The position numbers were made by a program, and so were the translations under genes. DNA of 23,241 bases. It comes from a virus. The DNA is taken from the IMG/VR virus record IMGVR_UViG_3300046656_000201, positions 1 to 23,241 of that record; one strand, 5' to 3'. Below are positions 2,666-21,521 of the stretch, piece by piece. Each line of letters starts with the position of its first letter. Positions within the stretch are counted from its first letter, which is position 1. The notes under the pieces are model-generated. The model saw nothing but the letters and a program-made list of their open reading frames with translations, ran no database searches and had not been told where the DNA came from.

Positions 2666-2703
2666 GACCCGATCTCCTGTTTCGTGCGCCTCTCCTCGCG
2701 TCC

Positions 2704-2767: not shown

Positions 2768-2783
2768 CCGGTCGCCCGCGACG

Positions 2784-6711: not shown

Positions 6712-8260
6712 GTTCGTCGTCGAGGCGTGGCACGTCCTGGAACCGAAGACGCCGTTCGTCGGCGGCTGGCATATCGACGCGATCTGCGATCACCTTCAGG
6801 CCGTCACGGAAGGGAAGATCCCGAAGCTCCTGATCAACGAACCCCCGCGTCATATGAAGTCGCTCGCGACGTCGGTCTTCTGGCCCTGCTGGACGTGGAC
6901 CTTCAAGCCGTGGGTGCGCTGGATGTTCGCGTCCCATAGCCTCGGTCTCTCGATCCGCGACTCCCTGAAGTGCCGCCGCCTCATCCGGTCCCCGTGGTAT
7001 CAATCCCTCTTTCGGGACTCGTTCCAACTCTCGGGGGACCAGAACCAGAAGTCGCGCTATGAGAACACCGAGGGCGGGATGCGCCTCGCGACGTCGGTCG
7101 GAGGACAGGGAACCGGAGAAGGCGGCGACATCATCGTCATCGACGACGCGCACAAGGTGGGCGAGGTCGAATCCAAAGTCGTCCGCGAGGGCGTGATCCG
7201 CTGGTACGACGAGACGATGTCCACGCGCGGCAACAACCCGAGTTCCTACGCCGAAGTCCTCATCATGCAGCGCGTCCACGAACAAGACCTCTCGGGGCAC
7301 GTCCTGGAGCAAGGTGGATGGACGCATCTCTGCCTCCCCGCCGAATACGAATCGGAAAGGAAATGCGTCACCGTCGTCGACGGGAAGCGATGGGAGGACC
7401 CGCGCACGAAGGAAGGCGAGCTCCTCTGGCCCGCGCAGTTCGGACGCGAACAGTTGAAGACCCTGAAGAGGAAGCTCGGGATCTACGGCGCGGCGGGACA
7501 ACTCCAACAGTCCCCCGTCCCTCCGGGCGGCGGCATCATCAAGAAGCAATGGCTCCGCTACTACAAGTTCGAGAACGGAGGGAAACACGTCCGCCTCGGG
7601 AACACCGTGATCCCCATCGAATCCCTCCACCGCTTCCTCGTCTGCGATCCCGCCGTGACCGAGAAGGAGGAGGCGGACTTTACCGTGATCGGATCGTTCG
7701 GCGTCGTCATCCAGAACCCACCCCTCCTGATCATGCTCGACAGGGTCAAGGACCAGATGGAAGGTCCGAAGATCATCCCCTCCATCGACTCCCTCAAGTT
7801 GAAATGGCGTTCCGGATTCACGGCCTTCGAGACCATCGCGTTCCAGAAGGCGATCTTCCAGGACGCGCGGCGCAGGGGGCGCGCGTTCCGTGAGGTCTCT
7901 TACGCCCTCGACGCCCTCGTCCGGATCGATAAGGACAAGGTCGCGCGGACCTACGCCGCCGCGCCGTTCGTGGAACAGGGACGCTTCTGGGTGCCCGCCG
8001 CTGGAGAGGCGGAATGGACGGACGACTTCGTGAAGAACTTCACCCACTTCCCGAAGATGGAACACGACGACGACGTCGACGTCGCGGACATCGCCATCGC
8101 GATAGCGGAGAAAAAAGAGATCCTCGCGTCGATCTCGGGACAACGGACGCTCGTCGTCGGAGAGGATCACGACCGCGAGGAAGATCCCATGCCCGGCGAG
8201 ATCGAGGACGACAACCCGGACGACCGCCGAGGCGACGAGAATTTCCTGAAGGGTTGGTAA
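6623..8260 (+). CDS. terL: Terminase large subunit
   Basis: 545 residues. This is the DNA-packaging ATPase/nuclease that cuts concatemers and pumps DNA through the portal. The ATPase domain shows a Walker A-like EPPRHMKS (73-80), Walker B DIIVIDDAH (169-177) and a coupling segment VLIMQRVHEQDLSG (212-225). A typical linker GQLQQSPVPPGGGIIK (292-307) leads to the RNase H-like nuclease with CDPAVTEKEEADFTVI (341-356) and an acidic HDDDVDVAD (481-489) supplying the metal-binding Asp residues. The chosen start is TTG 6623, with GAGG seven bases upstream and a sensible N-terminus; GTG 6677 is the alternative and lacks a ribosome site. Length and motif order fit the family. Confidence 0.93.
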   Translation: MTTSKKFSDLGPVPTWNEVRAEQARRSLRKFVVEAWHVLEPKTPFVGGWHIDAICDHLQAVTEGKIPKLLINEPPRHMKSLATSVFWPCWTWTFKPWVRWMFASHSLGLSIRDSLKCRRLIRSPWYQSLFRDSFQLSGDQNQKSRYENTEGGMRLATSVGGQGTGEGGDIIVIDDAHKVGEVESKVVREGVIRWYDETMSTRGNNPSSYAEVLIMQRVHEQDLSGHVLEQGGWTHLCLPAEYESERKCVTVVDGKRWEDPRTKEGELLWPAQFGREQLKTLKRKLGIYGAAGQLQQSPVPPGGGIIKKQWLRYYKFENGGKHVRLGNTVIPIESLHRFLVCDPAVTEKEEADFTVIGSFGVVIQNPPLLIMLDRVKDQMEGPKIIPSIDSLKLKWRSGFTAFETIAFQKAIFQDARRRGRAFREVSYALDALVRIDKDKVARTYAAAPFVEQGRFWVPAAGEAEWTDDFVKNFTHFPKMEHDDDVDVADIAIAIAEKKEILASISGQRTLVVGEDHDREEDPMPGEIEDDNPDDRRGDENFLKGW

Positions 8261-8404: not shown

Positions 8405-10345
8405 GTGACCCAACCCCTCATGATCCGTTCGTACAACCCGGATCAATACGTCTGGATGCTGGAGTCGGCCTACCGCGCCGGATGGCGCGTCTTCGATCCC
8501 GACTTCGCGACGGCGTCCGACGCGGAGATCTACGAAAAGCTCCGTCGAGATCCCGACGTCGCGTCCGCCTTCAACATCCGCCTCCATGGTGTCGCCTGTC
8601 GCGACTGGCGCGTGGCCCTCTCGGGCAAGCCGTCCCTGGAGGAGAAGACGTTCGGCGGGATTGTCGAAGACGCGATGAAGGAGATCGAGGGGTTCACGTC
8701 CGCGCGCCTCGAACTCGCCCACGCGGTCATCCGTGGATCGTCGTGGGGGTTCGTCCGGTGGGGACGCCGCTTCACGCGCCTCGGTCCTCCAGGGACGCCC
8801 CGGATGTCGTGGGTCGTGCCCCTGTCGATCAAGGACGTCGACCGTCGCCGCATGAGGTACGGATTGCGGAGGAACGTCGATCCCTCGACCGGGATGGAAG
8901 TGATCGACACGCCCCTCGAAATGCGCTCCACGACGCGCGGCCAATGGGAGCGCGTCCGCGACGACGCGCCCTTCATCACGCTCACCTACCAGGACGAGGA
9001 ATGCCGCCTCGGATACGGGCGCGGCCTGATCGAGGCGTTGTACTTCTACCACTTCCTGAAAGGGAAACTCCTCACGGAAGGGATGCAGGGAATCTCCCGT
9101 TGGGCGCAGGGGATGGTCGTCCTCGGGATCGACGGCCTGCGCGAGGCGCAGTACACGAACTCGAACGACATCATCCAGTCCGCCGTGATCGACGCCCTGA
9201 AGAAGTTCCAGTCCCGCCATGTTCTCGTGAAGGACAAGACCGACGACCTTGAGATCAAAGAGTCCTCGGGGTCCGGGAACGACATGGTCCTCGAATTCAT
9301 CCACGAGATGAACCGGGCGATGCGCGTCCTCGTCCTGGGGAGCGATCTCCCCTTCGGCGGGGACAGGGGCAAGGGATCGACGGAGATGGCGGACGCGCAG
9401 GCGGCGGTCTCTGCCGAACTGATCGACTTCGACCGCGAGCTCCTGGACGAGGCGATCACGAAGTTCATCATCCGGAAATTCGTCTGGTACAACCGCCCGA
9501 ACCTCCAGAAGCTCGGGATGCTCGGGATGAGAATCCCGCGCTTCACGTCCATCAACGAGAGGTTGGAAGACCCGGAGGCGGCGGCGTCCGTCTTCGAGAC
9601 CATCCATCGGAACGGGTTGGCCGTGCGGAGGGATGAACTTTACAAGAAGGTCCGCTACAGCGTGCCCATCGAGGGCGACGACATCATCGAGGGTTCGGAG
9701 GAACCGGATCTCGACGGCCTCTTCGGGATGCCCGGGATGGGCGGCGAAGAGGACGGAGACGAAGGCGGCGGGGAAGATCCGACGAAGAAGGACGGGAAGT
9801 TCCCGCCCGCGAAGGGCAAGCCGGAAGCGAAGCCGAAGAGGAAGCCCGGGTCCGGATCGTTCCGCCGCGCGTTCCTGTTCAACGCAATGCTCGCGCATGG
9901 ACAACGCAGGGAGGAAGAGCCGATGAACCTCACGATCAACAACGCGCCCGCCCCGGCCCTCGCGCCCGCCCCTCAGACGATCAACATGAGGGTCCAGATG
10001 CCCGAGATCCCGGACGTGCAGGCGGCGAGGGACCGCGAGAAGATGCTGCGCGCGGAGATCGATGAGATCCACAAGAGGTTCGGCGAGGCGATGGCGCGTC
10101 CCGTCGACGTCCACGTCGAGGCACCCAAGGTCTTCGTCCGTCCGCAGATCACCGTCGAGGCGGCGAAGGCCCCGGACGTCCGACTCGAGGTCGCGCCTCC
10201 TCCTCCCGCGAACGTCCAGGTCACCGTCGCCGCGCCTCCCCCCGCGAACGTCGTCGTCAACATCCCGGAACAGAAGGGGAAGAGGTTCGGGTTCCAGTAT
10301 GACAAGGACGGGAAGCTCAAGGGCGCGGAGAGCACCCCGAAATGA
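8405..10345 (+). CDS. Portal protein (DUF935/Mu gp29-like) with long C-terminal tail
   Basis: 646 residues from GTG 8405 (CGGAG site). Residues 1-450 form the portal core: RRDPDVASAFNIRLHGV followed by WRV in the N-terminal wing, LELAHAVIRGSSWGFV, PLSIKDVD, a central segment LGYGRGLIEALYFYHFLKGK, and LGSDLPFGGDRGKGSTEMADA, the loop-plus-helix typical of DUF935 portals. The portal forms the dodecameric DNA gate at one capsid vertex. After about residue 445 an acidic Gly-rich linker, a Lys/Pro stretch and then a tail with a short helix and Ala/Pro-Val repeats (APPPPANVQVTV, APPPANVVVNI) follow. The tail has its own internal start (9923). Its stop overlaps the next ATG by four bases. Confidence 0.85.
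   Translation: MTQPLMIRSYNPDQYVWMLESAYRAGWRVFDPDFATASDAEIYEKLRRDPDVASAFNIRLHGVACRDWRVALSGKPSLEEKTFGGIVEDAMKEIEGFTSARLELAHAVIRGSSWGFVRWGRRFTRLGPPGTPRMSWVVPLSIKDVDRRRMRYGLRRNVDPSTGMEVIDTPLEMRSTTRGQWERVRDDAPFITLTYQDEECRLGYGRGLIEALYFYHFLKGKLLTEGMQGISRWAQGMVVLGIDGLREAQYTNSNDIIQSAVIDALKKFQSRHVLVKDKTDDLEIKESSGSGNDMVLEFIHEMNRAMRVLVLGSDLPFGGDRGKGSTEMADAQAAVSAELIDFDRELLDEAITKFIIRKFVWYNRPNLQKLGMLGMRIPRFTSINERLEDPEAAASVFETIHRNGLAVRRDELYKKVRYSVPIEGDDIIEGSEEPDLDGLFGMPGMGGEEDGDEGGGEDPTKKDGKFPPAKGKPEAKPKRKPGSGSFRRAFLFNAMLAHGQRREEEPMNLTINNAPAPALAPAPQTINMRVQMPEIPDVQAARDREKMLRAEIDEIHKRFGEAMARPVDVHVEAPKVFVRPQITVEAAKAPDVRLEVAPPPPANVQVTVAAPPPANVVVNIPEQKGKRFGFQYDKDGKLKGAESTPK
9923..10345 (+). CDS. Possible nested protein from an internal portal start
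   Basis: An in-frame ATG at 9923 lies eight bases after GGGAGG, as good a ribosome site as any in the window and not expected in the middle of a gene. It would give a 140-residue protein beginning MNLTINNAPAPALAP, with a short helix (about residues 33-55) and beta-prone Val/Pro repeats. As I recall, other phages encode similar small Pro/Val proteins as a separate gene just after the portal. Whether it is made separately, fused, or both is not decided by sequence. Confidence 0.45.
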   Translation: MNLTINNAPAPALAPAPQTINMRVQMPEIPDVQAARDREKMLRAEIDEIHKRFGEAMARPVDVHVEAPKVFVRPQITVEAAKAPDVRLEVAPPPPANVQVTVAAPPPANVVVNIPEQKGKRFGFQYDKDGKLKGAESTPK

Positions 10346-11505
10346 ATCTCCTCGGTGCCGTCAATTACGACCCTTCCTCTTCGGTCACGAAGTCCATGGC
10401 CTCGCTGCTGGCCATGACGGCGTTCGACACAACAAATCTCCGCGTTACCGCCACGGTGCCAGCGAGCGGAAAAGTGTTTTGCCGAATGCGCGTCGGCTTC
10501 GCGGCGAGTGCCGCAACCTTTCGCACTCTTTTCGGTGTGATGAATGGTGCCTCCGTGCTGGCTCGCCAAATCCCGGCCCTCACTCAGCCGCTTACGGGCG
10601 GATCGCTGTACGCCGAATTCGTCATCGTCGGCCTGACGCCGGGCGCATCCGTGAACTTCGACGCGGCCTATAGCGTCGAAGTAGTTCTTGCGGCCAGTAC
10701 GCTCAACTACGGCGGTCCCGACAACACGACGACGAACGACGCATGGGGCGGTTTCTGCTTCGAGATTTGGGACCCTCAGCCGCAAACCACCACGGGCCAA
10801 CTCAGCGTTGACGCCAACGGGCGCGTGGACGTAATTAAGGTCGCGGGCACCACCCAAACGGCAGGCGACATTCCCGCGCGGCTCCCTGCGGCGTTGACGG
10901 CGGGCGGGAACATGAAGGCGGACGTCCTCGCGATTGAGGGCGCGGACCCGACCGACACGATCCGAGATTCCATCCTCACGGACGCGACTCTCTTCGCAGG
11001 CGCGAGCGTGGCCGCGATCAAGGCGAAGACGGATCTCATCCCCGCAGGAGGACCTCCCGCCGCGAGCGACTACACGGCGGCGCGCGCCGCGAAGATCGAC
11101 AACCTCGACGCGACGATCTCCTCCCGTCTCGCGTCCGCGTCCTACACCGCGCCCGACAATGCGGGGATCGCGGCGGTCAAGGCGAAGACCGACAACCTCC
11201 CTCCCGATCCCGCAGACGCTTCGGACATCGCCGCCGCCTTTGCCGCCGTCCCCGCCGCCGTATGGTCCTCTGGATCGAGGACCCTCACGTCGTTCGGGAC
11301 TCTCGTCGCGGACATCTGGGCGTCCGTCCTGGAGGTCGGATTCAGCGCGTCCCATTTGATCCGCGTCATCGCGGCGGCGGTCGCAGGGAAGACCACCGGA
11401 GGCGCGACGGGATTCACGGCGCGCAACGTCTCCGACACGGCGGATCAGGTCGTCGGGACCGCAGACGCGGACGGGAACCGGACCCCGACGTCCCACGGGA
11501 GCTAA
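10342..11505 (+). CDS. Putative virion appendage/structural protein, mosaic
   Basis: 387 residues, with ATG overlapping the portal stop by four bases. Residues 1-190 look like a beta-rich domain (many Thr, Ser, Val and Gly) and are encoded with codon habits unlike the rest of the window. From about residue 191 on the sequence returns to the local style and has an Ala-rich, repeat-like region: AAIKAKTDLIP (near 223) and AAVKAKTDNLP (near 276), with AARAAKIDNLDATISSRLAS between. The C-terminal LIRVIAAAVAGKTTGG...DADGNRT pattern is one I associate with phage tail or appendage proteins of environmental phages. Host-contact or virion decoration is inferred; the exact structure is unknown. Confidence 0.65.
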   Translation: MNLLGAVNYDPSSSVTKSMASLLAMTAFDTTNLRVTATVPASGKVFCRMRVGFAASAATFRTLFGVMNGASVLARQIPALTQPLTGGSLYAEFVIVGLTPGASVNFDAAYSVEVVLAASTLNYGGPDNTTTNDAWGGFCFEIWDPQPQTTTGQLSVDANGRVDVIKVAGTTQTAGDIPARLPAALTAGGNMKADVLAIEGADPTDTIRDSILTDATLFAGASVAAIKAKTDLIPAGGPPAASDYTAARAAKIDNLDATISSRLASASYTAPDNAGIAAVKAKTDNLPPDPADASDIAAAFAAVPAAVWSSGSRTLTSFGTLVADIWASVLEVGFSASHLIRVIAAAVAGKTTGGATGFTARNVSDTADQVVGTADADGNRTPTSHGS

Positions 11506-11508
11506 CCC

Positions 11509-11742
11509 ATGCCCGGAGGAACGTGGTTCGGAGGGAACTGGTGGGCCTCGAACTGGTGGGGCGCGAACTGGTGGGCGCGCGGCGCGCAACCGGAGACGGG
11601 GGGATCTGGAATCGATTGGGAATTCTTCTTGTCCCTGGATGCCGCTCATCGGCTAGACTTCATCCGGACACAACGTAAGCGGCGCGACAGAGACAACCTC
11701 ACCGCCGTCGCCCTGATTCTCGCGGAGGAAGACGACGAATGA
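11509..11742 (+). CDS. Trp-rich repeat small protein
   Basis: 77 residues, ATG at 11509 three bases after the previous stop (the AGG of GGGAGC lies just upstream). The N-terminus is an aromatic Gly/Asn/Trp repeat, GNWWASNWWGANWWARG (residues 8-24), encoded by three 15-base repeats. After a Gly/Ser linker comes a helical, charged half (DWEFFLSLDAAHRLDFIRTQ, then a basic RKRRDRD and an acidic end). No signal peptide is present. The aromatic repeat could bind sugars, membranes or virion surfaces; the function is unknown. Confidence 0.65.
   Translation: MPGGTWFGGNWWASNWWGANWWARGAQPETGGSGIDWEFFLSLDAAHRLDFIRTQRKRRDRDNLTAVALILAEEDDE
11536..11580 (+). repeat. Three tandem 15-bp units encoding NWW repeats
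   Basis: AACTGGTGGG occurs at 11536, 11551 and 11566, each followed by a 5-base GC-rich spacer, giving three in-frame units that encode the NWW motif. The exact 15-base period indicates recent tandem duplication within the gene. Confidence 0.8.
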
Positions 11743-12014
11743 GACGCACGCTCCCGAACTTCGAGATCGCCGCCAAGTACAAAGAGGTCTTGCCTGCGGA
11801 CGAGAAGACGAAGACACCCGAGAAGGACACCGGGAGGAAGGGTCTCGTCGTCCGGATGGACGACCGATTCAACATCCAGATCGAGACGAAGAAGGGGGAA
11901 CCGGAACTCGGAGGCATCCGGGGGTTCAAGGGCGACTCGATCATCAGACGCGACGACGGCGGATTCGACGTCATCAAGGGCGATGACTTCATGAAGAACT
12001 GGCGTCCCGCATGA
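11739..12014 (+). CDS. Hypothetical protein, 91 aa
   Basis: The ATG overlaps the previous stop by four bases. A Lys/Glu/Thr-rich N-terminus (DEKTKTPEKDTGRKG) precedes beta-like strands (LVVRMDDRFNIQIETKKG, SIIRRDDGGFDVIKG). No membrane segment, cysteine cluster or recognisable family is present. It sits in a chain of coupled small genes after the appendage protein, so a minor virion or assembly role is possible. Confidence 0.7.
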   Translation: MRRTLPNFEIAAKYKEVLPADEKTKTPEKDTGRKGLVVRMDDRFNIQIETKKGEPELGGIRGFKGDSIIRRDDGGFDVIKGDDFMKNWRPA

Positions 12015-12457
12015 AAGACGACCGCGCGGAATGGACGTGGCTCATGTTCGCGGACCCGTCGCGCGGGGATTGCGTGGCGCAGGTCCTCCTCGATCCCGAG
12101 AAACTCGACGCGCCCCCCGCCATCGCGTCGATGCGCTTCCTCATGCAGATCCAACTCTCCTTCGCCGCGAATCCCTCGGGGGAGAAGGTGCCCGTCCCGA
12201 ACCTCAAACCCGTCTGGATTCACGACCCGATCCTGAAGCCGATCCCCTGCAAGCACGCGCGCCTCCGCTTCACGATGCTCGTCTGGTGGGGGGAGGCGGC
12301 GGAAAACATCGTCGCCATCGCCGAGAAGATCGCCCTCAACAAGCCCCTCCCGCCGCCGAAGCCCGTGATCGCTACGGAGATGGACGCGAAGGTCGAGGGG
12401 AAGATCGACGAGGAGAAGAGGAAGTTCGAGATGAAACTCGTGACGCCCTCGCCGTGA
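12011..12457 (+). CDS. Hypothetical protein, 148 aa
   Basis: ATG at 12011 in a four-base overlap. The protein has a globular-looking first half (WTWLMFADPSRGDCVAQVLLDPEKL, IQLSFAANPSG) and a strand-rich segment around PVWIHDPILKP and LRFTMLVWWGEAAENIVAIAEKI (about residues 97-119). A Pro-rich hinge and a charged Lys/Glu helix at the C-terminus follow. I do not recognise a family. Coupling to its neighbours suggests it belongs to the same structural transcript. Confidence 0.7.
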   Translation: MKDDRAEWTWLMFADPSRGDCVAQVLLDPEKLDAPPAIASMRFLMQIQLSFAANPSGEKVPVPNLKPVWIHDPILKPIPCKHARLRFTMLVWWGEAAENIVAIAEKIALNKPLPPPKPVIATEMDAKVEGKIDEEKRKFEMKLVTPSP

Positions 12458-12675
12458 GCGGACCCCACAAGCATCGTTGGCAGTACGCGCAGATGAACCA
12501 CCATCTCTCCTCGGGCGGACCTCATCCGCAGATGCGCGAGTGTTCCGAGTGCGGTAAGGCGGACCTCCGGATGGTCTGCGCGCCCGGAGTTCCCTGCGAG
12601 AAGTGCGTCAACGCGAAGTGCGTCTGTTCCTGCCATGGCCCCTCGTTCCCGAGGACGAGGCAGATCCACGCATGA
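12454..12675 (+). CDS. Small Cys/His-rich putative zinc protein
   Basis: 73 residues from GTG 12454, overlapping the previous stop by four bases (GTGA). Eight cysteines (30, 33, 42, 48, 51, 56, 58, 60), plus His5, His7, His17, His18, His24 and His61, suggest one or two zinc sites. The first half resembles a CxxCG zinc ribbon. Its coding identity is supported by start/stop overlaps at both ends. Function is unknown; a nucleic-acid- or protein-binding adaptor is the usual possibility. Confidence 0.7.
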   Translation: MSGPHKHRWQYAQMNHHLSSGGPHPQMRECSECGKADLRMVCAPGVPCEKCVNAKCVCSCHGPSFPRTRQIHA

Positions 12676-13352
12676 TGTCCCTGGACGAGCTCGCGGGGAT
12701 CTGCGACGGGGTCGCGCGGGGCCTTCCCCTCTTCGTGATCGGGGGAGGTCCGTCCGTGAAGGGCCTCGACCTCTCCAGGATCTCGGGGTTCCCCCGGATC
12801 GCCGTGAACATGAGCTTCGTCCTGGGGGCGGACGTCGTCCTGATCGGCGACTCGAAGGTCCGACGCGAACTGATCCCCTCGAGTCCGGATCTCGTGGGCG
12901 CGTGGGCGGACTTCCGGGGTCTGAAGATCATGGTCCGCTTCGAGCAAGAGGCCGTGAAACCGGAGGACGTCCCGGACATGGTCCTCGTCCCTGCGGTCGA
13001 GAAGTGGACGACGTCTCTCCGGGATGGACTGATCAGATCCACGAATACGGGGATGGCGGCGATCAACCTCGCGGACGTGATGCGCCCCTGGACGATCTTC
13101 CTCCTTGGGTTCGATCTCGTCCCGGTGGAACCCCTCACGTCGAACTGGCACGACTTCTACAAGAACTTCAAGAAGCCGGACGACTACAGATCCCACGCGG
13201 AGTCGGTCTACCAGAACATGATGACGGACTTCCTGAAGAGATGTTCCCCGCGTTCGCCTGTCGTGAACTGCAACAGGGACTCGCGTCTCCGGATGTTCCC
13301 GTTTTCGACATTCGACGATGCGGTTCTTGCGGCCCAAGGCGCGATGAAGTAG
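12672..13352 (+). CDS. MptE-like / DUF115-like protein of glycan metabolism
   Basis: 226 residues from ATG 12672 (four-base overlap). FVIGGGPSVKGLDL (21-34) is the nucleotide-sugar-type loop of the DUF115/MptE-like Rossmann fold, followed by IAVNMSF (43-49), ADVVLIGDSK (53-62) and NTGMAAINLADV...IFLLGFDLV (125-150). Relatives of this fold include 6-hydroxymethylpterin pyrophosphokinase MptE, flagellin-glycosylation Maf proteins and phage or bacterial sugar-transfer proteins. It opens the 7.6 kb cassette of glycosyl- and methyl-transferases, which favours a role in glycan transfer over pterin synthesis. The catalytic activity is not fixed by sequence. Confidence 0.7.
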   Translation: MMSLDELAGICDGVARGLPLFVIGGGPSVKGLDLSRISGFPRIAVNMSFVLGADVVLIGDSKVRRELIPSSPDLVGAWADFRGLKIMVRFEQEAVKPEDVPDMVLVPAVEKWTTSLRDGLIRSTNTGMAAINLADVMRPWTIFLLGFDLVPVEPLTSNWHDFYKNFKKPDDYRSHAESVYQNMMTDFLKRCSPRSPVVNCNRDSRLRMFPFSTFDDAVLAAQGAMK

Positions 13353-13357
13353 AACGT

Positions 13358-13376
13358 CCGGACACGAAGCGTCCGG
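13358..13376 (+). promoter_or_regulatory. Palindromic operator-like site 5 in the cassette
   Basis: CCGGAC-ACGAAGC-GTCCGG is a perfect 6-bp inverted repeat. Its core GGACACGAAGCGTCC (13360-13374) matches sites 1 and 3. It fills one of the very few gaps in the rightward transcript, between the MptE-like stop and the ATG at 13384, and overlaps the GGAG ribosome site. As RNA it could hide that site; as DNA it could mark an internal promoter for the glycan cassette. Confidence 0.5.
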
Positions 13377-13383
13377 AGTGAAC

Positions 13384-14322
13384 ATGGAAGACGTCGTCAA
13401 GGTCGTCACGATGCAGGGTCTCGGGGATGCGTTCGCGTCCCGGCCCACGATTGCCGCCCTCGTCGAGAGGCACGGTCCGATCTACATCGAGACGTGCTGG
13501 CCGCAGGTCTTCTCCGACTTCCGGGCGCGCGGCCTCGCGAAGTTCCTCGCCCCCGAACCTACGCCCCTGCGGGCGCAGAAGAGGAACGCGATGGCGCGTT
13601 CGTCCGACTACTTCGACTTCGTCTTCCCGAAGACCGTGATCCGTCTCGGGTATTCGACGGACGGATTCAGGACAGGGAAGACGATCCCGGACATGATCGC
13701 GGAGAGCGCGGGCGTGGAGCCTCGGTGGGATATGTTCCGCCACCAGTTGTGGCGATGGGAGGAACGTCACGCCCTCTCGGTCGGGGTCTATCGACTTCCC
13801 ACGGTGAGGACGGAGTACCACAACACCGCGAGGAACCCCGCGCCCGGGATCATGCCCTTCGTGATGGGGTGCATCGCGAACGTCTTCAAGGGCATCGATT
13901 GGGTCCACTTCAACGACCTTTGGGAAGGGGAGACGCTCGCGGAGGAGGACATCACCGGAGGCGCGAAGATCACGAAGGGCGAATGGGGATTCGACTCGAT
14001 CTTCTCGTTCATGGAGAGGGCCGTCTGCGTCGTCTCCCCCGTGTCCTGGATGGCGTGGGCGGCGGCGTGCATCGGCGCGCCCACCGTCTGCGTCTCGGGC
14101 GGGTACGCGAACCCTCGGCAGATCTTTGGGTCCCTGGGGATGAAGTGCAACAACTTCGCCGTCCTGGTCCCCGATCCCTTCTGCGCGTGCCTCGATCCAG
14201 TCCACGAATGCAGGAAGACGATCACGCTCGACACGGTCGGCGCGATGATGAAGATGATCGTCAAGTCGTGGTTCGACTTCGGCCTCTACGGATGCACGCC
14301 TCGGAAGGGAGTCCGGAAATGA
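13384..14322 (+). CDS. GT9-like (heptosyltransferase-type) glycosyltransferase
   Basis: 312 residues. ATG 13384 is preferred because GGAG lies five bases upstream; GTG 13378 is the alternative. N-terminal KVVTMQGLGDAFASRPTIAAL matches the opening of GT-B heptosyltransferases (G-LGD motif, like FAD/ADP-heptose transferases). The C-terminal domain has CVVSPVSWMAWAAACIGAPTVCVSGGY, the position of the GT9 donor-site segment (usually DSGxxHLAxxxGxP), with the Asp and His replaced. It probably adds a sugar to a polymer or surface glycan, but the altered donor motif means donor or activity may differ. Eleven Cys residues are notable for a cytoplasmic enzyme. Confidence 0.65.
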   Translation: MEDVVKVVTMQGLGDAFASRPTIAALVERHGPIYIETCWPQVFSDFRARGLAKFLAPEPTPLRAQKRNAMARSSDYFDFVFPKTVIRLGYSTDGFRTGKTIPDMIAESAGVEPRWDMFRHQLWRWEERHALSVGVYRLPTVRTEYHNTARNPAPGIMPFVMGCIANVFKGIDWVHFNDLWEGETLAEEDITGGAKITKGEWGFDSIFSFMERAVCVVSPVSWMAWAAACIGAPTVCVSGGYANPRQIFGSLGMKCNNFAVLVPDPFCACLDPVHECRKTITLDTVGAMMKMIVKSWFDFGLYGCTPRKGVRK

Positions 14323-14567
14323 GCACGAACGCGAAGAACGCGGAGGAATTCGCGAGGGAGATCCTCGCCGCCTTCGAGTCGATGTCCGACGCGCCCGGCG
14401 TTCAAGACGTGATTCCTCTCCTGCGGGACTCGGTGAAGCGGATCGAGAAGTACGGGATCTGTCCGTTCGCGGAATACTCGTGGGAGAACAAGGCGAGCGG
14501 ATCTCTCCAGGATTTGATCGACGGGTTCGGAGGGCGTGAAGCGATCCGCAGATTGTTGCCCGTATGA
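14319..14567 (+). CDS. Hypothetical helical protein, 82 aa
   Basis: ATG at 14319 in a four-base overlap with the GT9-like stop. The product is mostly helical and acidic in its first half (NAEEFAREILAAFESM, VIPLLRDSVKRIEKYG), with a C-terminal helix GGREAIRRLLPV. No motif is recognised. The precise start/stop overlaps on both sides support a real gene. Confidence 0.65.
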   Translation: MSTNAKNAEEFAREILAAFESMSDAPGVQDVIPLLRDSVKRIEKYGICPFAEYSWENKASGSLQDLIDGFGGREAIRRLLPV

Positions 14568-14695
14568 GCCGTCGCCTGCGAGACGTACAACGCAAGCGCA
14601 GGATCAGGAAACGGGCGCGTCGATTCAAGTTCTGGAGGATGCGTTTCGGGTTCGGGATCTGCCTTCCTTACGGAGCGATCAAGGTGAATTCATGA
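14564..14695 (+). CDS. Tiny Arg-rich basic peptide, 43 aa
   Basis: ATG 14564 overlaps the preceding stop by four bases, and its TGA overlaps the next ATG by four bases, the same coupling as throughout the cassette, which is the main support. The peptide has about 14 Arg/Lys in its first 25 residues (SRRLRDVQRKRRIRKRARR), then a short hydrophobic end (FGFGICLPYG). It could bind RNA, DNA or acidic membrane surfaces. The frame may instead simply be a translational bridge between genes. Confidence 0.5.
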   Translation: MSRRLRDVQRKRRIRKRARRFKFWRMRFGFGICLPYGAIKVNS

Positions 14696-15450
14696 AGACC
14701 GCCGTCGTCGTCACGACGTACAACCGTCCCGCGTGCCTCGCACGGTCGCTCCCGTACATCATGATCGCGGCGCGAAAGGTGAATGCGCCCGTCCTTGTGA
14801 TCGACGATGGATCTCCGGATGCTTCGGACTACGCGAGGGAAGGCGCGTCGATCTACGGCGCGAGTTTCATCGGTCTCCCCTGGAATCGCGGTCTCGCCGG
14901 GGCGATGAACATCGGTCTATCGTTCTTCCTCGCAGACCCGGAGATCGAGGCGATCCACTACTTCCAGGACGACGTCGAAGTCGACCCTCTCGCGCTCGCG
15001 GCGATCAACGATGTCCTCGCGCAAGTCGGGGACTTCTGCGTCACCGGACACGACGCGAAGGAACATCACGCGAAGCCGCATTCTCCGATCTGCGATTCGC
15101 CCTTCGGTCCGATCTGCGGGATCATGACGCGCCTCCGTCCTTCGTGCCGCGCGACCCAGATGTCCGCGCTTCGTTCGGCATGGACGAAGGTGATGCCGAT
15201 CCGCTCGAAGGGTCTCGGTCTTCCGAAGCGTGTCCCCCGCGCGCCGAACGATCCGGAACAGAGGGGCGAGGGGTCCTCCGTCGACTGGTGGATCGTGCGG
15301 GACGCGCCTCGCCGTCTCGACACGATCTGCATCCCTGGACTCGTGCGGTCGTTCTCGCACAAGGCAGAGGATTCGACGTGGGGCAATCCGCAAATCGCGG
15401 GCGAGGACGGACCTCTCCACCGCGAGGCGATCAAAGGATGGGTGAAATAA
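14692..15450 (+). CDS. GT2-family glycosyltransferase (GT-A fold)
   Basis: 252 residues from ATG 14692. Classic GT2 features are present: VVVTTYNRP at the N-terminus (residues 5-13), VLVIDDGSPDAS (34-45, nucleotide-sugar Asp pair), GLPWNRGLAGAMNIGL (61-76) and YFQDDVEVDP (90-99) supplying the metal-binding DxD-type acidic residues. It is shorter than many GT2 enzymes but has a complete GT-A core. A C-terminal region with W-W-DAP residues probably shapes the acceptor site. It uses an activated sugar to extend a glycan. No membrane segment is present, so it acts in the cytoplasm. Confidence 0.82.
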   Translation: MKTAVVVTTYNRPACLARSLPYIMIAARKVNAPVLVIDDGSPDASDYAREGASIYGASFIGLPWNRGLAGAMNIGLSFFLADPEIEAIHYFQDDVEVDPLALAAINDVLAQVGDFCVTGHDAKEHHAKPHSPICDSPFGPICGIMTRLRPSCRATQMSALRSAWTKVMPIRSKGLGLPKRVPRAPNDPEQRGEGSSVDWWIVRDAPRRLDTICIPGLVRSFSHKAEDSTWGNPQIAGEDGPLHREAIKGWVK

Positions 15451-15755
15451 TGGGACAGGCAAAACAGAGAAAGCTCGCAGGGACCTATCCCGTCCAGGAC
15501 GGGACGCGCCCGATGACGGACGCGAGGAAGTCCGGAAAGTGGAACCCGTCGTGTCGGAAATGCCACGGGACGGGCGTCGTCTCCTATTACGTCGAAGGCA
15601 CGGAGACGAAGAAGGTCGCGTGTTCCTGCGAGTTCAAACAACTCACTCCAGCGGAAAAAAAGGGCGTCGACGAACAGAGGAACATCGACGACATCCGCGC
15701 GGCGGTGGACATCGGGGTCGCCCACGCGCAGTTCGACGCGGAGAAGAAGTCGTGA
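15450..15755 (+). CDS. Small zinc-knuckle protein (CxxCHGTG)
   Basis: 101 residues. The ATG at 15450 shares its A with the preceding TAA. A basic start (MGQAKQRKLAG) leads to SCRKCHGTGVV (34-44), the repeat unit of DnaJ-type zinc domains, and a second pair Cys58-x-Cys60. Only one such unit is present, so a single zinc site is likely and this is not a full DnaJ. A charged helix follows. The role is unknown; it may be an adaptor for neighbouring enzymes. Confidence 0.7.
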   Translation: MGQAKQRKLAGTYPVQDGTRPMTDARKSGKWNPSCRKCHGTGVVSYYVEGTETKKVACSCEFKQLTPAEKKGVDEQRNIDDIRAAVDIGVAHAQFDAEKKS

Positions 15756-16324
15756 ACGGCGCGCGCCAACTCGCGCGGGACTTCATCGCACCCCTCATGA
15801 TCAACGGGACGCGCGTCCTCGACGTCTGTTGCGGGGATCGATGGGTCGAGAAGGAATTCACAAAGATCCTCGGGAACAGCGGGCATTACGAGGGCATGGA
15901 CAAGAAGGATCACGACGACCTGACAATCGAATTCGAGAAGTGGCCTACCTCGATCACCGATTGCGACACGACCGGAGACGACGAGGATGGTTGGGATCTC
16001 ATCCTCTCGATCTACGGCCTCCAGCATCTCCTCGCGGAAGAGGCGCGCGTCTGGACTCTCCTCCGCAGGATCGCGAGGCCGACGACGCGGTTCGCCTACG
16101 TCGGACGTCCCGCCCTCATGTCGTGGCGCGAGATGGATCGACAGGACCCATTGAACGCATACAGCCAAGCCGGGTTCCGAGGTCTCGCCCTCGCCTCCGG
16201 GTGGTCCGTCCTGTCGTGGCGCGAGTTCCTCTACTCGTCGGACGGGTACGATGAGGCGAAGGACCTTCACGTCACGAACGGAAACCCCAACGCCTTCGCC
16301 GCCCTCATGGAGCCTCTCGAATGA
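15752..16324 (+). CDS. SAM-dependent methyltransferase-like protein
   Basis: 190 residues from GTG 15752, coupled by a four-base overlap. RVLDVCCGDRW (21-31) is the SAM-binding motif I, with Cys residues where Gly is more usual. GMDKKDHDDL (48-57) is at the acidic end of strand 2, and WDLILSIYGLQHL (81-93) is at motif IV with the helix after it, as in small class I methyltransferases. The target is unknown; the cassette context suggests a sugar or glycan. The replaced glycines lower certainty that it is an active methyltransferase. Confidence 0.65.
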   Translation: MNGARQLARDFIAPLMINGTRVLDVCCGDRWVEKEFTKILGNSGHYEGMDKKDHDDLTIEFEKWPTSITDCDTTGDDEDGWDLILSIYGLQHLLAEEARVWTLLRRIARPTTRFAYVGRPALMSWREMDRQDPLNAYSQAGFRGLALASGWSVLSWREFLYSSDGYDEAKDLHVTNGNPNAFAALMEPLE

Positions 16325-16926
16325 AGATCCAGCATCTCGGAACGGACTACGGAGGGTGGTGGATCGACGTGGATCTTCTTCCCGAGGAGGGCGTGATCAT
16401 CGACGCGGGGGTGGGGACGGACATGACCTTCACCGAGGCCCTCCACGAATTGAAGCCCGGAATCCGCGCCGTCCTGATCGATCACACCGACGAGTCCGCT
16501 GAATACGTCCTGAAACACCGCGCGCATCCGTGGGTGACGTTCATCAAGTCCGCGCTCATCACGTCGAGGCACGAGGGCGCGGTCGAGATCTTCCGTCACA
16601 AGACGGCGGGCTCGGAGTCGGTCTACAACGACCACAACTTCGTCAACCCCGAGAATTCCTACACCGTTCCGGGCGTGCATCTCGGAGATCTCGTCCGGGA
16701 GCACAAACCTTTCCTCGTGAAGCTCGACATCGAGGGAGCGGAATACGGCGTCATCCGCGAATGTCTCGGCGTGCCTCAAGTCTGCGTCGAGTTCCACCAT
16801 CGGATGATGAAGAGGTTCACGGAGGCAGACACGAACGCGGCGATCCAGTTCTTCCTTGACCACGGATACCGCCTCGCCCATCGCACTCCGACCGACGAGG
16901 TCCTCCTCATCCTGGAGAGAACATGA
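16321..16926 (+). CDS. FkbM-family methyltransferase
   Basis: 201 residues in four-base overlaps on both sides. The hallmark FLVKLDIEGAEYGVI (131-145) is the FkbM signature; VIIDAGVGTDMTFTEAL (25-41) is the SAM-binding motif I region. FkbM-type enzymes O-methylate sugars or small glycans (the name comes from FK506 biosynthesis) and are common in phage and bacterial polysaccharide loci. Here it would methylate a sugar made or transferred by neighbouring enzymes. Confidence 0.85.
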   Translation: MKIQHLGTDYGGWWIDVDLLPEEGVIIDAGVGTDMTFTEALHELKPGIRAVLIDHTDESAEYVLKHRAHPWVTFIKSALITSRHEGAVEIFRHKTAGSESVYNDHNFVNPENSYTVPGVHLGDLVREHKPFLVKLDIEGAEYGVIRECLGVPQVCVEFHHRMMKRFTEADTNAAIQFFLDHGYRLAHRTPTDEVLLILERT

Positions 16927-17495
16927 GCATCGTCCACGACCTGCGTCTCCTGGAGATCGACGGCTGGATGGAGGAGGACGAGCTCGAGTTCCTTCACGCC
17001 ATGGCGTCCGCGTGCACCACGGGGATCGAGATCGGCGCGTTCAAGGGGCGGTCGACGTGCGCCCTCGCTCACGCCCTAAAGGACAAGAAGGACGCGCGCC
17101 TCTCCGTGATCGACACCTTCGAGGGGACGGGGACGTCGCGCGAGGCAGAGTTCAAGGGCCACCCGGAACGTCTCTTCCGGGAATTCATGGAGAACCTCGG
17201 GGAACGAGATCTCGCGGGGGTCGTGATCCCCTTCCTCGGATCGTCCGGGGATCGCGTCCTCGTGAACCACTTCGAGGACGCCTCGGTCGACTTCCTGTTC
17301 ATCGACGGATCGCACGACAGGGAATCCGTGACGCGGGATCTCGCCCTCTGGACGCCCAAGGTGAAGAAGGGCGGCGTCCTCTGCGGACACGATTACCACG
17401 AGACGTGGCCCTCCGTCGTCGAGGCCGTCGACGAGTTCTTCGTGGGCGCGAAGGTCGAGAACCCCGTGGGCGGGATCTGGAAGGTCACCAGATGA
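16923..17495 (+). CDS. Class I methyltransferase (Methyltransf_24/TylF-like)
   Basis: 190 residues from ATG 16923 (four-base overlap, GGAGAG upstream). IEIGAFKGRST (35-45) is motif I of the Methyltransf_24 group, SVIDTFEGTG (61-70) closes the second strand, and FLFIDGSHDRESVTRDL (124-140) is the metal-binding/catalytic segment seen in macrocin O-methyltransferase-like proteins. GGVLCGHDY with its His-Asp pair follows. It probably methylates a hydroxyl of a sugar. It is the third methyltransferase in a row, suggesting a polymethylated glycan. Confidence 0.8.
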   Translation: MSIVHDLRLLEIDGWMEEDELEFLHAMASACTTGIEIGAFKGRSTCALAHALKDKKDARLSVIDTFEGTGTSREAEFKGHPERLFREFMENLGERDLAGVVIPFLGSSGDRVLVNHFEDASVDFLFIDGSHDRESVTRDLALWTPKVKKGGVLCGHDYHETWPSVVEAVDEFFVGAKVENPVGGIWKVTR

Positions 17496-17797
17496 AGGAC
17501 GCATGGACATTGAAACCCGGGTCGAGGAACTGGAATCTCCGCGCGAGTTACTCGATGAAGCGCACGAAGACGAAGACGGTCCACGTCCTGTTCGTCCTGA
17601 AGACGGTCTGGATGACACCGAAGGATGCCGCCGCTCTTGTGAAGGAAACGCCCTACGCCTTCATTCTCACGGCAGAGGACGAGGCGCAGTTGAAAGAGAA
17701 CGAACGCAGGACGCGGGAACTCTGTCGTCACGTCAAGGCGGCGGCGGAAGCGTGGAAGCGAATGGACTCGCGGGTCCTCCTGGGGCTACTCAAATGA
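17492..17797 (+). CDS. Hypothetical protein, 101 aa
   Basis: The ATG overlaps the preceding stop and the TGA overlaps the next start, each by four bases. A basic N-terminus (SMKRTKTKT) is followed by a hydrophobic strand VHVLFVLKTVW and a helix MTPKDAAALVKE. A charged, probably coiled helix covers residues 60-92. The piece VWMTPKDAAAL resembles VWMTPKEIAAV in the ribbon-helix-helix protein at 4569, so a shared DNA-binding fold is possible but weakly supported. Confidence 0.65.
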   Translation: MKDAWTLKPGSRNWNLRASYSMKRTKTKTVHVLFVLKTVWMTPKDAAALVKETPYAFILTAEDEAQLKENERRTRELCRHVKAAAEAWKRMDSRVLLGLLK

Positions 17798-18510
17798 GAT
17801 TCGTGATCCGCGTCGACGACTTCGGATGGACGGGAGACGGAGATCCCGAGAACGCGCCGATCAAGCGCGTCGACCGTGGGTTCGTCCTCGCGAAGAAGTT
17901 TCACGACGCGATGCAGGGCGTCCCGTACCTCGCGGGCGTGATCCCGTCGACCGCAGATCCCGAGGCCGTCTCCTGGATCGAATCGAAACCCGCAGGGATG
18001 TCCGTCGCGCTCCACGGGTGGAACCACCAGATGCGGGAAGGGGCGCGAAACGAATTCGAGGGGATGGGCGAGGAGGGATGTCGCGCCCTCTTCTCCTCGG
18101 GGATGAAGAGGATCGGGACGACGCGCCACCTGATCCCGCCCTTCAACGCGATCACGGAGCCGATGGTCCGCGCCGCGTGGCACGAGGGCATCCGCTTCAT
18201 TTGGGGCGCGCCGTCGAACTGGAACACCCCGCCGTCTCCATACGAAATGGAGAAGGGCGTCGTCTTCGTCCCGTCCTGGAAGCCCCTCTACGGCGCGTGC
18301 GGGTGGGGACAGACGCCGGGAGATCGCGCCCTCTGGCAAGCGATGGCGGAACTCGGGAACGGACACGGGATCGCGGTCGTGACCCTGCATCTCCCTTGGG
18401 AGGTCGCGCGAGATCCGGAATTCAAATGGGTCCGCTACGTCGTCGAAACTCAACGCCGCTGGATCATGTCACCGGAGGAATTCGCCGATGCTCTACCATC
18501 TCGTCTCTAG
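17794..18510 (+). CDS. Polysaccharide-deacetylase-like (CE4/NodB-type) protein
   Basis: 238 residues from ATG 17794. RVDDFGW (6-12) gives the catalytic base and metal-binding Asp pair, ALHGWNHQM (72-80) the metal-binding HxxxH, IPPFNAI (114-120) the Arg/Pro loop region, and TLHLPWE (197-203) the last catalytic His. This order matches the NodB/CE4 superfamily, closest in style to DUF2334-type deacetylases. CE4 enzymes remove acetyl groups from N-acetylated sugars, for example in peptidoglycan or surface glycans. There is no signal peptide, so it acts inside the cell on a precursor. Length is that of one catalytic domain. Confidence 0.75.
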   Translation: MRFVIRVDDFGWTGDGDPENAPIKRVDRGFVLAKKFHDAMQGVPYLAGVIPSTADPEAVSWIESKPAGMSVALHGWNHQMREGARNEFEGMGEEGCRALFSSGMKRIGTTRHLIPPFNAITEPMVRAAWHEGIRFIWGAPSNWNTPPSPYEMEKGVVFVPSWKPLYGACGWGQTPGDRALWQAMAELGNGHGIAVVTLHLPWEVARDPEFKWVRYVVETQRRWIMSPEEFADALPSRL

Positions 18511-19369
18511 GACGTGGGCGCAGGGAGGACGGACGGGCGTCCCTCGGTTCGACTACTACATCGGGAAGGCGTTCCCGGATCTCGTCTCGATCACCCCGCA
18601 GGACAAGATCGCCCTGTCGTCCGAGGACGTCGTGATCACGGACAACCACCTCGGACTCGAGGTTCCCGAGGACGTCCCCTGCGTCGTGGTTCACCACGGG
18701 TGCGCGCCTTATCACTACCACGTCGATCCCGTCTGGAGGAACGACGAGACCCTTCGGATGGCGGCGGATCAGAGGCGCGTCCTGAAGAGGCCGAACACCG
18801 TCTTCGTCGCGCCGTCCGCGTGGGTGATGAAGGAATTCTCGAAACTCGCGGACGAGTCGTATCCGTCGCGCGCCTTCTTCATTCCCCATTGGGTCCCGGA
18901 GATCCCCGCAGGCGCGGACGGTCCTCGGATCTGGCGCGGGCCGCGCGTGATCGGGGACTGGAGGACTCAGAACAAGGGGTCGGAGATCTGGCCCTTCCTC
19001 GCGTCCTCGATGCCCGACTTCGAGTTCGCCCCCCTGAAATACGATGAGAACTCGGAGGAGGCGCGCCGCCAGTTCTACCGGAACGCGGACGTCTACCTCT
19101 GCCTCTCGCTTTCGGAGGGGTGCCCTTACTCCGTCCTGGACGCGGAGGCCGCGTCCCTTCATATCGTGACAACCGAGACCGGATCGTGTCACGAGCTCGC
19201 GCAGGGGGGCGCGATCATGATCAGGGATCGGAACGACGTCGCCGAGATCCAGAAGGCGATCACGCAGGCGAGTCTCCGCACGATGCGCCGCGTCAATATG
19301 TTCCGGTCCTTCCACTTCGCGAGTTGGCGCGCGGCGTGGGAGGACGTCATCGCCAAGGCGCGGAAATGA
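18488..19369 (+). CDS. GT-B (GT4-type) glycosyltransferase
   Basis: 293 residues from ATG 18488, 23 bases inside the previous gene; the GGAGGAATT ribosome site is within that gene's end. The C-terminal domain shows FIPHWVPEI (131-139), DVYLCLSLSEGCPYSVLDAEA (201-221), the E-G-P...E donor-phosphate motif of GT4-like enzymes, and TTETGSCHELAQGGAIMI. The N-terminal half contains VVVHHGCAPYHYHVDP. It is shorter than typical GT4 enzymes (350-400) but has both lobes. It transfers a sugar from a nucleotide donor, presumably in the same glycan pathway. Confidence 0.78.
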   Translation: MLYHLVSRTWAQGGRTGVPRFDYYIGKAFPDLVSITPQDKIALSSEDVVITDNHLGLEVPEDVPCVVVHHGCAPYHYHVDPVWRNDETLRMAADQRRVLKRPNTVFVAPSAWVMKEFSKLADESYPSRAFFIPHWVPEIPAGADGPRIWRGPRVIGDWRTQNKGSEIWPFLASSMPDFEFAPLKYDENSEEARRQFYRNADVYLCLSLSEGCPYSVLDAEAASLHIVTTETGSCHELAQGGAIMIRDRNDVAEIQKAITQASLRTMRRVNMFRSFHFASWRAAWEDVIAKARK

Positions 19370-20244
19370 AGACCCTGTTCGGCCTCCACGGAGGACTCGG
19401 GAACTCGATCTTCTGCCTGCCTGCGATCAAGTCGCTGCATCGGAACGGGGACGACGTTTCCCTCTGCGTCCAGGGGGACTACGAGATGGTCGAACTCTGG
19501 CGTCGATGCGTGTACGTCCAGGAGGTCTTCGGACCTTCGCAGGATCTTCCCGCGTTCGACCTCTACCTCTGCGGCCAGTACCTCCCGTCTTCAATGCACG
19601 GGCGCGACGTCCGCTACTGCGGATTCCCAAAGGGAACGACGAAATACGAACGTCCCGAGTGGGAACAGATCATGAGGCGCGCCGAGTGCCGAAGCATCTT
19701 CCCGGATGTCGTGGACTGGATTCGAGATCACGGAGAGGGACAGTCCTTCGACTTCTTGTGGGACATCGGGATCGTGCCCGGGTGCAAGCCCGGGGACGAA
19801 TGGTCGAGGAAGACGTGGCCGGGGATGTCGTCCATCGCGAGCGTCTTCCGGGAACAGGATCTCTCGGTCGCGGCGTTCGGCCTGCGCGAGGACTTCGAGA
19901 AGGTCCCCGCCCTCCTGAAGTACCACGTCGGTCCTTACCCGCTCGAACGGATGCCCGAACACCTTCGTCGATGCCGCGTGATCGTGGGGACCGACTCCGG
20001 GATCGTCCACCTTGCGTCCTCCCTGGGGGTCCCCTGCGTCGTGATCTACACCGCGACGTCTCCGATCAAGGGCGACCCGGTCGGAGATCCTGCGACGATC
20101 CGGAAGATCTCCCTCAACATCCCGTGTTCCCCCTGCCAGTCGACGCCTCGCTGGAAGGAATGCACGAACTGGATCTGTCGTCAAATCCCGGTGGCGGACG
20201 TGGTGTCCGCCGCCTATGATCTTCTCTCGAAGCGAAAGGGGTAA
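19366..20244 (+). CDS. GT9-family (heptosyltransferase-like) glycosyltransferase
   Basis: 292 residues, four-base overlap with the GT-B gene. FGLHGGLGNSIFCLPAIKSL (5-24) is the GT9 N-terminal loop and strand; RVIVGTDSGIVHLASSLGVP (204-223) carries the D-S-G-x-x-H donor site, followed by CVVIYTATSPIKGDP, typical for ADP-heptose-type transferases. The intact motif contrasts with the first GT9-like gene at 13384, so the two may be donor-specific partners or one may be inactive. It closes the glycan cassette; the co-chaperonin gene starts three bases later. Confidence 0.85.
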   Translation: MKTLFGLHGGLGNSIFCLPAIKSLHRNGDDVSLCVQGDYEMVELWRRCVYVQEVFGPSQDLPAFDLYLCGQYLPSSMHGRDVRYCGFPKGTTKYERPEWEQIMRRAECRSIFPDVVDWIRDHGEGQSFDFLWDIGIVPGCKPGDEWSRKTWPGMSSIASVFREQDLSVAAFGLREDFEKVPALLKYHVGPYPLERMPEHLRRCRVIVGTDSGIVHLASSLGVPCVVIYTATSPIKGDPVGDPATIRKISLNIPCSPCQSTPRWKECTNWICRQIPVADVVSAAYDLLSKRKG

Positions 20245-20247
20245 CGC

Positions 20248-20592
20248 ATGGAAGCCTCGGATCTGAAAAACCTTCGCCCCACGGACGACAACGTCCTCGT
20301 CAAGTTGCGCGAGGCCCCGAAGAAGGTCGGGCGGATCATCCTCCCCGACGTCGCCAAGGACAAAAAGCAACAGGTCGCCGACGTGATCGCGGTCGGCCCC
20401 GGGAAGTGGTATCTCCACGAGAACGGGAACTGCAAGCGCGCGCCGATGCAGGTCTCGCCGAAGGACGTCGTGATCTGCGGACCCTACGCGGGCGCGGCGG
20501 TCGTCATCGACGGCACGCCCTATCGACTCATCCACGAGGACCAGATCCTCATGATCATCGACGATCCGGACCTCGTGAAGGTCCCCGCGTGA
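20248..20592 (+). CDS. Phage co-chaperonin, GroES/Cpn10-like
   Basis: 114 residues from ATG 20248 with AAAGGGG upstream. LRPTDDNVLVKLREAPKKVGRIILPD (9-34) matches the Cpn10 opening (xPLxDRVxV...TxGGIILP). VADVIAVGPGKW (43-54) is the conserved AxVxAVGPG strand, VSPKDVVICGPYAGAAVVIDG (68-88) matches the GDxVxFxxYaGxEVxxdG segment, and YRLIHEDQILMII (91-103) is the end strand. Co-chaperonins cap GroEL; phage versions such as T4 gp31 enlarge the folding chamber for the capsid protein. Here it sits between the glycan cassette and the Mu F-like head gene, consistent with capsid folding. The mobile loop is intact-looking. Confidence 0.88.
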   Translation: MEASDLKNLRPTDDNVLVKLREAPKKVGRIILPDVAKDKKQQVADVIAVGPGKWYLHENGNCKRAPMQVSPKDVVICGPYAGAAVVIDGTPYRLIHEDQILMIIDDPDLVKVPA

Positions 20593-21347
20593 TGGACGCC
20601 GCGCAGCGAGAGTTCGAGATCCTTCGGGACCACGCCACGACGGTCTACACCGAGGAACTCTCGACTCTCGGGCGCGCCGCGTTCGATGAGAACTGGACGA
20701 AGGTCGACGCGCAGACGGACAAGATCTCGCAACTCCTTTCGGACACGATGGTCCTCTTCGACCTCCACGGTCGACGCAGGATCTTGATCGAGTCCGACAA
20801 GTTCAAGGAACCCACGGAGGAGGAGAAGAAGAAGGTCCTCTTCTGGACGGGATCTCTCCTCGTCTTCCGGGATCAACCCGTCGTCCCGCGCGTCCCGTTC
20901 GGAGAGGCGGTCAAGGATCTCCTCTCGCGCGAACCCCGTCTGAAACGGGGGTACAAGGAAGTCCAGGAGGCCTACTCGAAGTCGCACGTCTTCGCGCTCG
21001 CGAAGAAGGCGCGCGAGGAGACGGTCTCCCGCGTCCAGGATTACATCGCAGGGGCGACGGAGAGGGGGACAGGAACCATCCGGGCGGGGAAGGTGATCGC
21101 ACGGATCGGGGGATGGTCGGAATCCTACGGGCGCATGGTGTACCGCACGAACGGCGCGACGGCCTATTCCGGAGGACGATTCCAACAGGCCTTCGACATC
21201 GACGTCCGCGCGAAGGTCGCGGGGTTCGAGCTCGTCGGGATGAAGGACGCGGACACGCGCAAGAACCACGCGGCGGCGCACGGTCTTTTCGCTCCCTGCA
21301 CCCACCAGATTTGGCAACGATTCTCGTCGCCGCTCGGGTACAACTGA
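20592..21347 (+). CDS. Mu F-like head morphogenesis protein, ended by an in-frame UGA
   Basis: 251 residues from ATG 20592, sharing one base with the preceding stop. The helical N-terminal two thirds lead to the Mu F core: MVYRTNGATAYSGGR (182-196) and DADTRKNHAAAHG (219-231), then WQRFSSPLGYN (241-251). In the family the last segment continues as GYNCRC. Here the next codon is TGA, followed in frame by codons for Arg-Cys-Gly and then 54 more open codons (to 21521). So the conserved first Cys codon is replaced by TGA. Mu F-like proteins are minor capsid or head-completion proteins beside the portal. The gene may be nonsense-truncated, read through, or a sequencing error. Confidence 0.85.
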   Translation: MDAAQREFEILRDHATTVYTEELSTLGRAAFDENWTKVDAQTDKISQLLSDTMVLFDLHGRRRILIESDKFKEPTEEEKKKVLFWTGSLLVFRDQPVVPRVPFGEAVKDLLSREPRLKRGYKEVQEAYSKSHVFALAKKAREETVSRVQDYIAGATERGTGTIRAGKVIARIGGWSESYGRMVYRTNGATAYSGGRFQQAFDIDVRAKVAGFELVGMKDADTRKNHAAAHGLFAPCTHQIWQRFSSPLGYN

Positions 21348-21356
21348 CGGTGCGGA

Positions 21357-21521
21357 ATGAGGATCGTCTCCCGTGAGGAGGCAAAGCGCAGGGGATGGAT
21401 CGACCGCTCCGGGGCCGTGAAGGTGCATCGTCCAGGATCGTTCTCGCGTGCCCATCCAGACGCGGGATTCGGAAAGGGCCGTCCGGATCTCGATTACTAC
21501 CGCAAACTCGCGGGGGTTTAG
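21357..21521 (+). CDS. C-terminal remainder of the Mu F-like protein, or 54-aa reading frame
   Basis: 54 codons in the same frame as the Mu F-like gene, starting nine bases after its TGA; only a weak GCGGA precedes the ATG. Its content (MRIVSREEAKRRGW, then a charged stretch and HPDAGFGKGRPDLDYYRKL) matches the usual end of Mu F-like proteins after GYNCRC, where an acidic/aromatic tail with a PDxGF pattern follows. It could be translated only by readthrough, by reinitiation after the TGA, or be a dead remnant. TGA is the normal stop for many neighbours, so general recoding is excluded. Confidence 0.6.
   Translation: MRIVSREEAKRRGWIDRSGAVKVHRPGSFSRAHPDAGFGKGRPDLDYYRKLAGV

Follow-up and report, generated by a model that had tools for sequence, protein, structure and literature searches.

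Introduction

Most known selenoproteins are redox proteins, and Cys is the usual counterpart of selenocysteine (Sec). In E. coli selenoproteins of the FdhF type, the SECIS lies within the coding region right after the UGA, and the SECIS of fdhF has the loop GGUC. The published model of the bacterial element (bSECIS) describes a loop of 3-9 nt with G in the first two loop positions, a stem of 4-16 bp and a distance of 16-37 nt from the UGA (PMC13188914). A selenoprotein that is encoded by a virus and made with host machinery has been described for a eukaryotic virus, namely fowlpox glutathione peroxidase 4, which uses a eukaryotic-type SECIS (PMC8310308). Reviews and surveys of prokaryotic selenoproteins name no phage protein (PMC13188914, PMC9312934, PMC2398784, PMC5029168); the word phage is absent from a 2026 and a 2022 review of the subject, and no phage selenoprotein was found in our literature search, the coverage of which was incomplete. 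The mechanism of the bacterial SECIS is known, and a phage head-morphogenesis protein as its target appears to be new.

MuF proteins are found in ~30% of prophages over 18 kb, and their domain has been described as being of unknown function (PMC5576092). Among known systems, phage Mu gpF and SPP1 gp7 (MuF1), minor head proteins of family PF04233, come closest to the case studied here. We describe a phage muF gene that has an in-frame UGA where the family has a Cys codon.

Results

A muF gene with UGA at a conserved Cys codon

The window, by which we mean the whole stretch of DNA analysed, is a viral sequence record, 23,241 bases long. The features relevant here are the following.

6623-8260, + strand: terminase large subunit (context only)
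8405-10345, + strand: Mu-like portal protein (context only)
20248-20592, + strand: GroES-like co-chaperonin gene, directly upstream of muF (context only)
20592-21344, + strand: MuF (Phage_Mu_F, PF04233) coding part before the UGA, 251 codons, from the ORF and a Pfam match
21345-21347, + strand: in-frame UGA at the first Cys of GYN[C]RC, the proposed selenocysteine codon (residue 252), from the frame and the Cys of relatives
21348-21518, + strand: tail after the UGA, 57 codons, beginning R-C-G, from alignment and predicted structure
21366-21382, + strand: SECIS-like hairpin GUCUCC-CGUGA-GGAGGC with its loop 24 nt after the UGA, from folding and a hairpin search
21519-21521, + strand: TAG, the stop of the proposed full-length 309-residue product, from the frame

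The window MuF matches PF04233 over residues 148-250 (E 2e-9, 38.6 bits, above the curated cut-off of 29.6) and also matches phrog_220 (minor head protein and DNA pilot). It is like Mu gpF and SPP1 gp7 in its PF04233 domain up to the TGA, in its GYN-x-RC motif, in the Mu-type portal and terminase encoded on the same contig, and in its predicted head-morphogenesis/minor capsid fold. It differs from them in having UGA for the first motif Cys and in lying ~10 kb from the portal gene. Terminase and portal genes on the contig assign muF to the head and packaging region of a tailed phage, albeit at this distance. The codons for G-Y-N directly precede the TGA and those for R-C-G follow it, in the same frame as the ATG at 20592, so the original prediction of a UGA at the first conserved Cys of GYNCRC is borne out by the reading frame and by the Cys of relatives.

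The ~10 kb between portal and muF (10345-20592) contain the GroES-like gene, glycosyltransferases and unknown genes, whereas in Riverbug and MMP7, two annotated phages, portal and muF are neighbours. The GroES-like gene ends in an ordinary TGA stop that overlaps the muF ATG. Apart from glycosyltransferases, the further genes of the window include one tRNA-Gly (TCC), which at 5984-6061 overlaps the end of an ORF at 5420-6181.

UGA recurs at the same codon in other muF genes

Relatives were sought with the read-through protein aligned to four distant homologues, and 80 loci were obtained. These have Cys when aligned at the UGA site, and the Cys is invariant in an alignment of 37 rows, three of which (the window, L205 and L183) had C written for their UGA. 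Pattern scans of viral collections for (S/P)PxG[Y/F]N-TGA-[R/S]C brought in the loci L183, L184 and L198, and a search with the L184 protein brought in L205, L206 and L207, all with TGA and ~80% identical to L184. Comparison of the codon among relatives, which the original prediction had proposed as a check, gave TGC at 132 and TGT at 17 of 159 loci (window counted), i.e. a Cys codon at 149, and TGA at the other ten. The ten represent five distinct MuF genes: that of the window and four others, L183, L184, L198 and L205 (= L206/L207). The last of these is the same gene on three contigs, each with its own dataset id; L205 and L206 share 99.96% identity, while L205 and L207 show ~20 differences over 4.5 kb and have the TGA in common. 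The TGA genes occupy at least four separate places in a 114-row tree, with a minimum of five state changes, the tree having been built by a quick method that left many inner forks weak.

These data bear on the explanation that the window contig carries a nonsense mutation or an assembly or sequencing error, so that muF is defective or really has a Cys codon here. The window TGA is seen in a single contig and is one base away from a Cys codon, and the nearest relative of the window, L105, has TGC. However, exactly the same codon is TGA in four other distinct MuF genes, one of them on three contigs. A control scan with TGA at the second Cys returned one true MuF gene, L201 (3194-3220), in which GFN-C-R-TGA is followed by an open tail and by a hairpin, CCUCUC-CGGGC-GGGAGG, 17 nt downstream. 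L201 may use Sec at this second Cys or carry a chance nonsense mutation, and it shows that MuF genes can have an in-frame TGA at another site, as the error explanation would have it. Because the control yielded a real MuF gene, we dropped count enrichment over the control as an argument.

The strict TGA pattern found no such MuF gene in ~85,000 genomes, where 12 of 12 matches were chance matches outside MuF; the same pattern also misses L205. L185, L199 and L200, from the viral pattern scan, were likewise chance matches outside MuF. Single-sequence scans, with the window MuF and portal in viral contigs and with MuF in genomes, returned no relatives, and while 80 loci came from a TerL scan, the MuF proteins observed among them were of another type.

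A SECIS-like hairpin follows the UGA

The original prediction had found only weak stem-loops after the UGA and no convincing SECIS, and thereby overlooked the hairpin at 21366-21382. Comparable hairpins are present in the other TGA genes.

L198: UCUGUC-CGUGA-GACAGA
L183: CCACC-GGUC-GGUGG
L184: CCACA-GGUU-UGUGG, plus a bulged U and, lower down, two more G-C pairs
L205: CCACA-GGUC-UGUGG, likewise with a bulged U and two more G-C pairs lower down

In all five genes the loop starts at nucleotide 27-29 (T of TGA = 1), i.e. 23-25 nt after the UGA, the stem has 5-6 bp and the loop is of the GGU or CGU type. When hairpins were sought directly, those of all five genes agreed with the bSECIS model in loop, stem and spacing. 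The genes resemble E. coli FdhF-type selenoproteins in having UGA at a conserved Cys, a hairpin 23-25 nt downstream and a G[G/U] loop, as well as a bulged U in L184 and L205; the GGUC loop of fdhF itself occurs in L183 and L205. They differ in that FdhF is a cellular redox enzyme, whereas here the protein is a phage head-morphogenesis protein.

A strict descriptor (at least 5 bp, a loop 4-5 nt long that begins with NGU or GGU, 20-28 nt from the UGA) was matched by 6/6 TGA rows and 0/108 Cys rows, or 1/108 Cys rows over 16-37 nt. Since the sequences were already known when the descriptor was made stricter, and since related rows were counted separately, the p-value of 4e-10 for the association of hairpin and TGA should not be read literally. 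With a looser descriptor and independent pairs, an average of 3.7 out of 4 pairs were consistent with the association and none was opposed, four pairs being too few to reach significance. Random synonymous recoding produced a match to the descriptor in 3.8% of cases for the window, 22.6% for L198, 1.2% each for L183 and L184 and 3.0% for L205. The presence of a hairpin in the window, with a chance of about 0.04 under such recoding, counts against the nonsense or error explanation. Hairpin energy relative to shuffled sequences was not unusual for the window (z 0.09), L183 or L205. For a bSECIS, a favoured fold at -7.5 kcal/mol or below is expected; the local fold of the window has -8.6, but another structure wins in longer folds of its downstream region, and a 39-nt fold of L198 favours another pairing over the SECIS-like hairpin.

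Close relatives with Cys were compared at the same site. L203 and L204, which are 80-81% identical and close to L184, lack both loop and stem, with AAA TTT GCG (L203) and AAA TTC GCG (L204) where L184 has AGG TTT GTG and L205 has AGG TCT GTG. L208 (Cys, 60%; MuF gene at 2501-3208) retains a perfect CCACA/UGUGG stem with the loop GGAG, and its stem is possibly the relic of a SECIS. The loop-closing pair is compensated, being C-G in L183 and A-U in L184 and L205. Judged from the sequences, the pattern in L203, L204, L208 and L183 would be the expected look of a SECIS that was gained or lost together with its UGA.

A downstream hairpin would also suit programmed readthrough, in which a near-cognate tRNA inserts an ordinary amino acid, short and long forms are made and the hairpin is stimulating. 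UGA followed by C is a leaky context, which we counted in favour of readthrough. Readthrough alone, however, would not explain why the UGA sits at the position of the invariant Cys in all five genes, and the loops obey the G[G/U] rule of the bacterial SECIS. We regard this explanation as improbable, the more so as its 251-residue form would be without part of the core in the structure model described below.

The tail after the UGA is conserved

All five TGA genes keep an open, homologous tail. In the window, the frame is open for 57 codons past the UGA, and this segment aligns with relatives and holds the conserved family residues G268, D290 and G292, as expected from the family-typical tail that had been predicted. 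Over the 75 codons after the TGA, L184 and L205 are separated by 24.7 synonymous changes and 15.3 non-synonymous ones (dN/dS 0.13, compared to 0.21 before the TGA). By this measure, the post-TGA tail of L184/L205 is under purifying selection and no less constrained than the sequence that precedes the TGA.

Third-position GC in the window falls from 0.85 before the TGA to 0.68 after it, which is at the high end of relatives (average drop 0.02, s.d. 0.08). This drop could reflect relaxed selection on the tail and speaks for a nonsense change or error, but the window tail is intact and has no other lesion. Taken with the recurrence and the hairpin, we consider a nonsense mutation or error in the window unlikely.

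The AlphaFold model of the window protein has a mean pLDDT of 85.5, and its predicted fold is similar to those of minor capsid and head-morphogenesis proteins of viruses. Confidence is highest in a part that takes in residues 251-290 (pLDDT 93-97 as ten-residue means), and these residues include a predicted strand (255-260) and helix (261-266), both after the UGA. Since residues after the UGA lie within the predicted core, a stop at 251 would remove part of the fold. A sequence search of the PDB and one fold search gave no usable MuF match for the geometry of the U-R-C motif.

The predicted fold is also relevant to a split gene, in which translation stops at the UGA and reinitiates at the ATG at 21357 to give the tail as a separate peptide. 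This ATG is in the same frame, but no clear ribosome-binding site precedes it, the predicted fold takes in the tail and the relatives are single proteins, making a split gene very improbable.

TGA is an ordinary stop codon elsewhere

As originally predicted, TGA is a normal stop in the window, where it ends ~14 of 25 likely genes, the GroES-like gene included. It also ends other long frames in the L183, L184, L206 and L198 loci. As TGA is an ordinary stop elsewhere in these contigs, UGA has not been generally reassigned. Reassignment to Trp or Gly in the hosts of the TGA phages has the in-frame UGA in its favour and nothing beyond it; it is contradicted by these stops and by the presence of one in-frame TGA per MuF gene, always at the Cys position, and we give it almost no credence. 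No tRNA-Sec was found in the phage records searched, and therefore the host must supply it.

Discussion

Selenocysteine as the best explanation

Among the explanations listed in the original prediction (nonsense change, error, selenocysteine and readthrough), the comparison with relatives favours selenocysteine, which the prediction had doubted for want of a convincing SECIS. Sec is favoured because the same codon is affected in at least four places in the tree, the tails are intact (and under selection in the pair measured) and the hairpin is found in all five TGA genes and, by the strict descriptor, in none of 108 Cys rows. Most relatives carry Cys at the UGA site. We conclude that the window gene quite probably encodes a MuF head-morphogenesis selenoprotein, with SECIS-directed Sec at the Cys codon of the family; for the window itself the Sec reading is likely, one assembly standing behind its TGA.

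In the proposed mechanism, muF would be translated up to the UGA in a host that has the bacterial Sec pathway (SelA, SelB, SelC, SelD), and the hairpin 24 nt downstream would recruit SelB with Sec-tRNA. Sec would then replace the first Cys of C-R-C, and the ribosome would go on to the TAG at 21519 to give a protein of 309 residues. The data show the position of the UGA, the protein family, the recurrence, the conserved tail and the association with a hairpin; we infer the use of SelB, the identity of the residue as Sec and a functional role of selenium in the U-x-C pair, which may be redox or metal-binding. Like fowlpox glutathione peroxidase 4, the product would be a virus-encoded selenoprotein relying on host machinery, but it would be a phage head protein with a bacterial-type hairpin.

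More broadly, it is on balance probable that several tailed-phage lineages use Sec in MuF, a head-assembly protein, and that one codon alternates between Sec, Cys and an intein junction. This would imply that the C-x-C motif, as yet unexplained, has a chemical role (redox or metal-binding). If so, Sec at the invariant Cys would mark this residue as chemically active and offer a direct test of the role of MuF. Gene callers would truncate the TGA form of this head gene, and phages with TGA-form muF would depend on a Sec-decoding host.

Intein-like inserts in muF genes

Intein-like inserts were observed exactly between GYN and C in three loci, L113 (from ~2425), L239 (from ~2996) and L259 (from ~2718). 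L113 and L259 resume with CRC after an insert that ends in SN or HN, and L239 runs off its contig. L239 is the nearest neighbour in the tree of the TGA gene L183.
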